A DNA stretch of 40,564 nt from Candidatus Thioglobus perditus (GTDB lineage: Bacteria; Pseudomonadota; Gammaproteobacteria; PS1; Pseudothioglobaceae): positions 1 through 40,564 of the forward strand of contig PNQY01000133.1 of the NCBI GenBank assembly GCA_002909145.1, in the 5' to 3' direction. The notes beneath the pieces are model-generated. The model saw only the letters and a list, made by a program, of their open reading frames with translations. It searched no databases and was not told where the DNA came from. A program made the position numbers and the translations under genes. Positions 2,729 to 4,106 of the stretch are shown here, piece after piece (positions within the stretch are counted from its first letter, which is position 1; every line of letters begins with the position of its first letter).

Positions 2729-2792
2729 CACGCTGATTTGTCCCGATTGCTAGCGTTACTACCTAGAGTAGTTAAAACAAGCTAAAGTAGGA
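2729..2792 (+). promoter_or_regulatory. SAM-II-like riboswitch aptamer upstream of metK
   Basis: The leader resembles the SAM-II pseudoknot. Helix P1 is ACGCT (2730-2734) with AGCGT (2752-2756). The enclosed 17-base loop starts GATTT and contains CCC and ATTGC, the same length and largely the same bases as the crystallised marine SAM-II RNA as I recall it. The 3' strand AGCTAAA then GTAGG (2780-2791) matches the conserved SAM-II tail, whose AAA and GG contact the loop. Unlike the compact form, about 23 bases lie between P1 and the tail and contain an extra hairpin, ACTAC/GTAGT (2758-2762 with 2768-2772). Placement before the SAM synthetase gene fits feedback repression. Identity rests on pattern memory, not a covariance search. 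Confidence 0.75.
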
Positions 2793-2805
2793 GTTCTTCT
2801 TAGAG

Positions 2806-2832
2806 AAAAACCCGCTTTTATAGGGTTTTTTT
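2806..2832 (+). terminator. Intrinsic terminator in the metK leader (probable riboswitch output)
   Basis: AAAAACCC (2806-2813) pairs with GGGTTTTT (2823-2830) around a 9-base loop, followed by more T. It lies between the aptamer and the metK ribosome-binding site, so it would stop metK transcription unless the upstream arm is captured by a competing helix. Confidence 0.7.
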
Positions 2833-2853: not shown

Positions 2854-3987
2854 ATGATATTTACTTCCGAATCTGTTTCTGCTGGTCACCCTGATAAGGT
2901 TTGTGATCAAGTTTCCGATGCTATTTTAGATGCAGCATTAACACAAGATAAAAACTCACGCGTTGCATGTGAGACACTAATTAAAGATAATAATGTTGTT
3001 GTTGCTGGAGAAATCACCACAAATGCTAGTATCGATTATGAGAAATTAATTCGTAAAACAATTAATGAAATTGGTTACAACGATGATGAGCTAGGTTTTA
3101 ATGGCTCAACTTGTAATATTGCCAACCTGTTAGGTGAGCAATCTCAAGATATCGCTCAAGGTGTTGATGAATTTGAAGATCACGAGCAAGGCGCAGGCGA
3201 CCAAGGTTTAATGTTTGGTTATGCTTGTAATGGAACTGATGTACTTATGCCTGCACCAATTTTATATGCACACCGATTAGTTGCGCGTCAAGCAAAACTA
3301 ATGAAAGATGGCACTCTGCCTTGGTTACGTCCTGATGCAAAATCACAAGTATCTTGTCATTATGACGGGCATAAAATCGTGGGTATTGATGCAGTAGTGT
3401 TATCTACTCAGCACAACGAAGATATTGAATTAAAAGATCTTCAAGAGGCTATTATGGAAGAGATTATTAAGCCGGTTCTACCAGCTGAATGGCTTTCTGC
3501 TTCTACTAAATACCATATCAACCCAACAGGCAAGTTCGTAATTGGTGGCCCTGTAGGTGATGCCGGTCTTACTGGTCGTAAAATTATCGTTGATACTTAT
3601 GGCGGTATGGCGCGTCATGGTGGTGGTGCGTTCTCTGGAAAAGACCCTTCAAAGGTTGATAGATCTGCAGCATATGCAACTCGTTATGTGGCTAAAAATA
3701 TCGTAGCTGCTGGGCTTGCCGACAGATGTGAAATTCAGGTTTCTTATGCAATTGGTGTGGCCGAGCCAACTTCTATTAGTATTGAGACTTTTGGTACAGG
3801 TAAAGCATCTAATGAAGAGATTGAGGCATTAGTAGCTCAGCACTTTGATTTACGACCTAAAGGCTTGATTGCAATGCTTGACCTTAAGCGTCCAATTTAT
3901 CAGCAAACTGCTAGTTACGGACACTTTGGTCGTACAGAGGATGAAATTACTTGGGAAAAGACTGATCGCGCCCACTTACTAAAATAA
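2854..3987 (+). CDS. metK: S-adenosylmethionine synthetase MetK
   Basis: Makes SAM from methionine and ATP in the cytoplasm. The 377 residues are close to the 384 of the E. coli enzyme. The [16 protein letters not shown] motif at the N-terminus, the [12 protein letters not shown] adenine-binding block (about 113-124) and the [19 protein letters not shown] phosphate loop (about 255-273) are all intact. A strong AAGGAG lies 8 bases before the ATG. It stands alone behind its own extended -10 promoter and a SAM-responsive leader, and is followed directly by the SAH riboswitch and ahcY. Confidence 0.98.
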
Positions 3988-3995
3988 CTCTTTAT

Positions 3996-4004
3996 TGGTA
4001 TAAT
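3996..4004 (+). promoter_or_regulatory. Extended -10 promoter of ahcY
   Basis: TGG followed by a perfect TATAAT (3999-4004) gives a predicted start near 4011, immediately before the SAH aptamer. The layout mirrors that of the metK promoter. Confidence 0.7.
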
Positions 4005-4013
4005 AACCAATTC

Positions 4014-4073
4014 GCTGAGGAGCGTTGCATTGGGTGATATACCCATCAGGCTCAGCAATCAAAACGACGCTCA
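4014..4073 (+). promoter_or_regulatory. SAH riboswitch aptamer upstream of ahcY
   Basis: The bases match the S-adenosylhomocysteine riboswitch, including the conserved GAGGAGCG-TGC block and CAGGCTC. P1 is GCTGAG (4014-4019) with CTCAGC (4051-4056). P2 is TGGGT (4031-4034 region) with ACCCA (4041-4045). P4 is GAGCGT (4020-4025) with ACGCTC (4067-4072), downstream of P1 as in the family. This class is known to sense SAH and switch on SAH-recycling genes, most often ahcY, which is the gene that follows. Confidence 0.93.
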
Positions 4074-4106
4074 TTTTTATTGTTTTTTATAGGAGATAAA
4101 AATGAG
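4070..4106 (+). promoter_or_regulatory. Predicted start-codon sequestering helix, exclusive with SAH aptamer P4
   Basis: Bases 4070-4080 are perfectly complementary over 11 bp to 4096-4106, which include the ahcY ATG at 4102-4104; the loop holds the AGGAG at 4091-4095. The 5' arm shares CTC (4070-4072) with the 3' strand of P4, so both helices cannot form together. This gives a simple on-switch: SAH stabilises P4 and frees the start codon. Confidence 0.65.

Follow-up and report, generated by a model that had tools for sequence, protein, structure and literature searches.

A probable SAM-II-type riboswitch with a SAM-V-like hairpin in front of metK in marine and symbiotic Gammaproteobacteria

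A promoter placed just before P1 is a layout described for SAM-II riboswitches (PMC1273637), and terminators are usual in this class (PMC2258182, PMC1273637, PMC6061858). The occurrence of SAM-II in gammaproteobacteria has been described as sporadic (PMC2258182). When methionine control was surveyed in some 200 proteobacteria, SAM_alpha turned up in Rhizobiales and Rhodobacterales only, before metY, metA, metX and other genes, not metK (PMC4239095). The long-loop form of SAM-II (RF01726) is listed for Bacteroidetes and marine metagenomes (PMC2864571), and SAM-V has the same SAM pocket as SAM-II (PMC6061858). In the literature covered, nothing joins riboswitches with Bathymodiolus; papers that mention riboswitches together with SUP05 appear to concern other matters than the element described below, which may nevertheless have been listed earlier.

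The window (the whole stretch of DNA analysed, 40,564 nt) corresponds to contig C125 in a gammaproteobacterial genome of 1.59 Mb. It carries an open reading frame of 377 aa (2854-3987; all features described here are on the forward strand), which is named metK, S-adenosylmethionine synthetase, by homology and whose orthologues in the family are 76-92% identical. Directly 5' of it, the segment 2728-2832 contains a complete SAM-II aptamer core; the original prediction had placed this element correctly to within 1-2 nt. In our judgement it is, with good probability, a riboswitch of the SAM-II type bearing a SAM-V-like P3 hairpin, and abundant SAM, the product of metK, would switch the gene off.

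Aptamer core and inserted hairpin

P1 joins 2730-2734 (ACGCU) with 2752-2756 (AGCGU) and encloses a 17-nt loop (2735-2751), so that stem and loop span 2730-2756. The loop holds the triplex strand GAUUU (2735-2739), a CCC (2742-2744) from which C2743-C2744 serve as the 5' strand of P2a, and the P2b 5' strand UUGC (2747-2750). The tail AGCUAAAGUAGG (2780-2791) contains the 3' strand of the pseudoknot (2781-2791), with G2781, C2782, A2784 and A2785 in P2b, G2790-G2791 in P2a, and U2783 and A2786 as predicted ligand contacts. The A-rich remainder of L3, AAAACAA (2774-2780), should occupy the minor groove of P1, a role taken over from PMC6061858; among 74 aligned leaders the A of column A49 is invariant and the neighbouring As are conserved in at least 90%.

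Across the same 74 leaders GCUAAAG is invariant, and AUUU, AUUGC and AGCUAAAG are invariant or almost so. In the 72 distinct rows of the alignment, 99.4% of P1 cells are paired; this stem varies little, but at two of its pairs both bases have changed (to G-C in L185, to U-A in L202). P2b is paired in 100% of cells and its pairs never vary; support for it therefore comes from conservation and not from covariation. P2a consists of two C-G pairs, is paired in 94.4% and is partly lost in a subgroup of genus g3. Over the whole structure there are 87 double-change cells, whereas 500 shuffles average 28.6 and none of them reaches 87.

Both loop and tail align letter for letter with the metX SAM-II RNA of structure 2QWY. 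Nine positions of this structure given in PMC3764141 (G8-C23-G42, U11-U21-A45 and U12-U20-A46) agree with the sequence used for this comparison. In window coordinates, G8 corresponds to 2735, U10-U12 to 2737-2739, A19-C23 to 2746-2750 and G42-A47 to 2781-2786. Thus, the pocket nucleotides G8, U11, U12, U20, U21, C23, G42, A45 and A46 are all present, including both U:A.U triples that read the sulfonium, and they are almost invariant in the 74 metK leaders (one or few have A at G8), which bears out the original proposal of a SAM-II-type aptamer. The H-type pseudoknot P2b with its conserved triplex strand, together with P1, is what defines the SAM-II class, and all of these parts are found here.

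Between P1 and the pseudoknot strand lies an additional hairpin of 5 bp (2758-2772, with 2758-2762 pairing to 2768-2772), rightly flagged as noteworthy in the original prediction. In the 74-leader set all five of its pairs are changed on both sides and 96.3% of cells are paired; the covariation was already visible with 30 leaders. The spacer from TTGC to GCTAAA is 25-43 nt in the family versus 18-21 nt in 33 SAM-II RNAs from outside it and, judged by this length, those 33 do not have the hairpin, although they were mostly found by RF00521, which penalises insertions, so that the sample favours RNAs with a short L3. In SAM-V, the P3 hairpin occupies the equivalent place, and the As after it contact the minor groove of P1 (PMC6061858, section 12); here too a hairpin follows P1 and is itself followed by AAAACAA. 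The short unstructured L3 of SAM-II is not found. Since the hairpin is inserted in L3 and covaries, we call the element a SAM-II variant.

Distribution and gene context

By metK, the closest named relatives include the Bathymodiolus heckerae thiotrophic gill symbiont. Its leader (L032) is identical to L138 of family member G099, which is why we regard the family as the SUP05/Bathymodiolus-symbiont clade. In GTDB this presumably corresponds to Thioglobaceae. The element was present in 30 of 31 readable family leaders, and the alignment was later extended to 74. A covariance model built from 30 leaders scores 92.6 bits (E 7.9e-20) against the window and matches 74 of the 83 family genomes (53-92 bits), or 47 of the 49 good ones. 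In every one of the 74 aligned leaders the element lies 5' of metK, as originally proposed, save for the copy in G031 (L175), where the next gene is beyond the fetched stretch. The nine family genomes without a model match include G005, in which metK is at a contig edge, and G030 and G032, in which metK was not found. Another of them, G009 (genus g10), has a metK leader (L203:230-361) with the promoter, AATTGC and AAAGCTAAAATAGGG, in which P1 and the GAUUU strand are gone; to judge from its sequence, it looks like a decayed or strongly diverged switch.

The hairpin form was found nowhere else in a sample of 369 gammaproteobacterial genomes plus a phylum sample. Other real-looking matches in the 369 genomes are weak (L142 before metN, 30 bits; L143 before metZ, 27 bits), and the phylum sample contributed one further SAM-II RNA, L206, before metX; all three are without the extra hairpin. 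L143 scores 36.4 bits with RF00521 and has a GCUAAAG/CUUUAGC antiterminator over a terminator. As an independent gammaproteobacterial RNA with a like arrangement, we count it in favour of our main explanation. Weak second model matches in G088 (L204) and G020 (L205), with no methionine gene downstream, were regarded as chance, and L144 (G303) was set aside as well, as neither metK nor another methionine gene was seen there. The core pattern was unmatched in viral contigs.

MetJ (PF01340) is absent from all 57 relative genomes searched, 36 of them from the same family, whereas the E. coli control was positive. The usual gammaproteobacterial repressor of metK is thus missing from these relatives. 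Upstream of metK, two genes (1444-2702) encode, as read by eye from the translations, an ABC ATPase resembling CcmA and a membrane protein resembling CcmB, and the metK leader begins immediately past the stop codon of the second. Downstream, between metK and ahcY, there is an SAH riboswitch (RF01057, 56.9 bits, 3999-4079) with its own TATAAT at 3999-4004, so that each of the two genes seems to be under its own control, metK by SAM and ahcY by SAH. RF01057 has no match above the cut-off in L016, L017, L027, L029 and L030, where the SAH riboswitch is lost or diverged; the metK switch is retained in the first four of these but not in L030.

Terminator, antiterminator and Shine-Dalgarno pairing

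Transcription probably starts at about 2727, at the 5' foot of P1, in view of an extended -10 element TGCTATAAT at 2712-2720. All 74 leaders have TATAAT 3-18 nt (mostly 4-8) 5' of where the aptamer begins, 34 of them as TGNTATAAT. This -10, which is of the extended type with a -35 match that is short or absent, was missed by a scanner based on consensus promoters and terminators, as was the terminator, whose 9-nt loop exceeds the scanner's limit of 8.

The intrinsic terminator (2804-2832) pairs 2804-2813 with 2823-2832, has a U run at 2826-2832 and carries a conserved GCUUU in its loop. Its hairpin is predicted at -10.1 kcal/mol against a shuffled mean of -2.4, and 0 of 500 shuffles reach this value, in agreement with the original call of a real terminator. 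That call had treated the terminator as unusual for SAM-II, which does not hold, as most SAM-II are reported to be transcriptional. By a strict scan the terminator is found in at least 48 of the 74 leaders; some leaders of genus g3 are without a recognisable one.

Terminator and antiterminator are mutually exclusive, 2804-2813 being part of both. The antiterminator, or ON hairpin (2784-2818), pairs 2784-2800 with 2804-2818. The helix initially proposed (2790-2800 with 2804-2813) is its inner part; the true helix is longer and extends into the pseudoknot strand (AAAG) and the terminator loop (CUUU), giving -7.5 kcal/mol versus -3.5 for the shorter helix. For this energy the shuffled mean is -3.7, and 20 of 500 shuffles reach it. 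The hairpin thus pairs the pseudoknot strand AAAG.AGG with the loop CUUU, and none of 1000 loop-shuffled controls reaches the observed AAAGYNGG/CCCGCUUU complementarity. In a test of own versus other partners the ON hairpin gave a weak signal (558 of 20000 overall, 137 of 20000 within g3), which we attribute to the aptamer nearly fixing its 5' strand. Co-variation of the short antiterminator strand was not found by this test, and that strand is retained just as conserved complementarity. In genus g3 and in L005, L014, L015 and L032, folding the tail without constraints gives the ON hairpin as the minimum-energy structure. In most leaders the terminator fold beats the antiterminator thermodynamically; the ON state must therefore be kinetic.

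The linker GUUCUUCUU (2793-2801) is complementary to the metK Shine-Dalgarno (SD) region AAGGAGAAU (2841-2849). The fold of 2793-2852, comprising anti-SD and terminator, is predicted at -16.9 kcal/mol, which 0 of 500 shuffles reach. Own linker/SD duplexes beat cross-species ones (0 of 20000 permutations with all leaders, 1 of 20000 without g3), although these permutations retain relatedness and the figures are not strict probabilities. None of 300 letter-shuffled linkers reaches the observed duplex energy, and in L114 and L176 both partners are changed, GUUUUCCUU with AAGGAAAAC. Because the linker is both complementary to the SD and co-varying with it, translation is probably controlled too. 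The original prediction, in part correct as to mechanism, had overlooked this pairing. In most leaders, equilibrium folding pairs the SD in the ON as well as the OFF state and so does not tell the two apart; our argument relies on strand exclusivity and on the order of folding.

From the arrangement of these strands we infer SAM binding, the order of folding and the effects on termination and translation as follows. RNA polymerase would start at the 5' foot of P1. With SAM, 2781-2791 would be locked in the P2 pseudoknot with its U:A.U triplex, which would bar the antiterminator (2784-2800/2804-2818), let the terminator (2804-2832) form and stop transcription. In transcripts that escape, the freed linker 2793-2801 could pair with the SD at 2841-2849 around the terminator hairpin and block translation. 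Without SAM, the long hairpin AAAGYNGGnGUUCUUC/GAAAACCCGCUUU would form first, burying both the 5' arm of the terminator and the anti-SD and leaving metK on. The originally suggested SAM-OFF switch, with the P2a GG (2790-2791) common to pseudoknot and antiterminator, is supported, and SAM probably blocks both transcription and translation of metK. It is tempting to speculate further that control at two levels comes from one aptamer intermediate between SAM-II and SAM-V, with one ON hairpin hiding both the terminator arm and the co-evolving anti-SD, and that one genus lost the terminator while keeping the same strands, so that turnover of the platform under a fixed aptamer may be traceable in close relatives. 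We put this fuller scenario forward tentatively, giving it somewhat less than even chances.

It is also possible, if rather doubtful, that the same SAM-II aptamer acts by termination alone and that linker and SD match incidentally, one being a CU-rich antiterminator strand and the other an AG-rich ribosome site. Most SAM-II riboswitches act at the level of transcription (PMC6061858), and a U-run terminator is present in the window as in most leaders. However, linker and SD co-vary beyond composition, as the permutations, the shuffled linkers and the double changes in L114 and L176 indicate.

Conversely, control might be mainly translational through the anti-SD, the terminator being secondary. 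The anti-SD is indeed the better co-varying element. The GGG terminator is missing from the g3 leaders L194-L198 and L201, and likewise from L026, L028, L123 and L132. In L194-L198 and L201, AAGCUAAAG faces CUUUAGCUU, forming 9 bp in most, with UCCUUU or AAAUCC, complementary to the SD, nearby; these features suggest a shift to translation control in this subgroup. Nonetheless, the terminator is retained in most leaders outside g3 and that of the window is strong, and we regard mainly translational control as unlikely.

Ligand, class assignment and relation to known SAM riboswitches

An altered ligand, such as SAH or another SAM relative, deserves mention, since close variants of SAM-I have switched to spermidine (PMC10853860) and the adjoining SAH riboswitch indicates that SAH matters in this operon. 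Yet every pocket position is unchanged, the two U:A.U triples included, and the target is the SAM-making enzyme, which makes such a change quite improbable.

No Rfam model calls the element. The best match, RF01726, reaches 17.9 bits against a cut-off of 44; RF00521 and the SAM-V model RF01826 are not listed for the window at E<=10, and RF00521 has no match in genome G000. The above-threshold SAM-II match anticipated originally was thus not obtained. RF01726 is above its cut-off in none of the 57 relatives, and since control genomes also match it at E<=1, its weak matches alone carry little weight. Weak matches to osmY, freshwater-2, STnc370 and similar families were far under the cut-off, lay on terminator- or SD-like sequence and were taken as chance. 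Rfam probably misses the element because the 5-bp hairpin sits between P1 and the pseudoknot strand; we trace the failed threshold to this insertion, and the comparative evidence from aligned sequences outweighs it. That a conserved attenuator or protein-binding leader should merely resemble SAM-II, as scores under all Rfam cut-offs might be read, is very improbable, as the entire core fits the metX structure in order, spacing and letters, insert aside, and the link to metK fits SAM feedback.

The element really departs from SAM-II in having a hairpin where SAM-V has P3, in its target metK and in its lineage. Apparently new are the SAM-V-like hairpin, the control of metK, the family-wide occurrence and a platform that combines terminator and anti-SD. 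The element fills a gap, namely the control of metK in a widespread marine and symbiotic lineage without MetJ, by an RNA that escapes the current Rfam models. As an insertion in L3 suffices to hide a SAM-II riboswitch from searches, more may be missed. The hairpin also brings the two SAM pseudoknot classes closer, and the proposed two-level platform on a single aptamer, together with terminator loss within one genus, would offer a natural series on platform change under an unchanged aptamer.

With SAM-II (SAM_alpha, RF00521; 2QWY) the element shares the H-type pseudoknot, identical pocket nucleotides, an equal loop length between GAUUU and AUUGC, the promoter just 5' of P1 and a terminator platform common in the class. 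It differs in its covarying L3 hairpin, a P2a of just 2 bp, scores under the Rfam cut-off and the target metK instead of metY, metA or metX (PMC4239095). GAUUUG..GAUUGC and GCUAAAG.AG are common to it and to the long-loop form RF01726, whose Rfam consensus is without the inserted hairpin. Like SAM-V (RF01826), it has a P3 hairpin directly after P1, then As, and a 2-bp P2a. However, P2a of SAM-V masks the SD directly, whereas here the 3' strand of P2a ends at 2791, short of the SD at 2841-2849, and the platform lies downstream, with a terminator. A SAM-induced terminator is likewise predicted for the metZ SAM-II riboswitch of S. meliloti (PMC9373788), which is alphaproteobacterial and has a different target. 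In the tandem 'bi-mechanism' SAM-II/SAM-V leaders of Pelagibacter (PMC9481103), SAM halts transcription and translation, as we predict for the metK leader; there, however, two aptamers share the task, whereas in the metK leader one seems to drive both.
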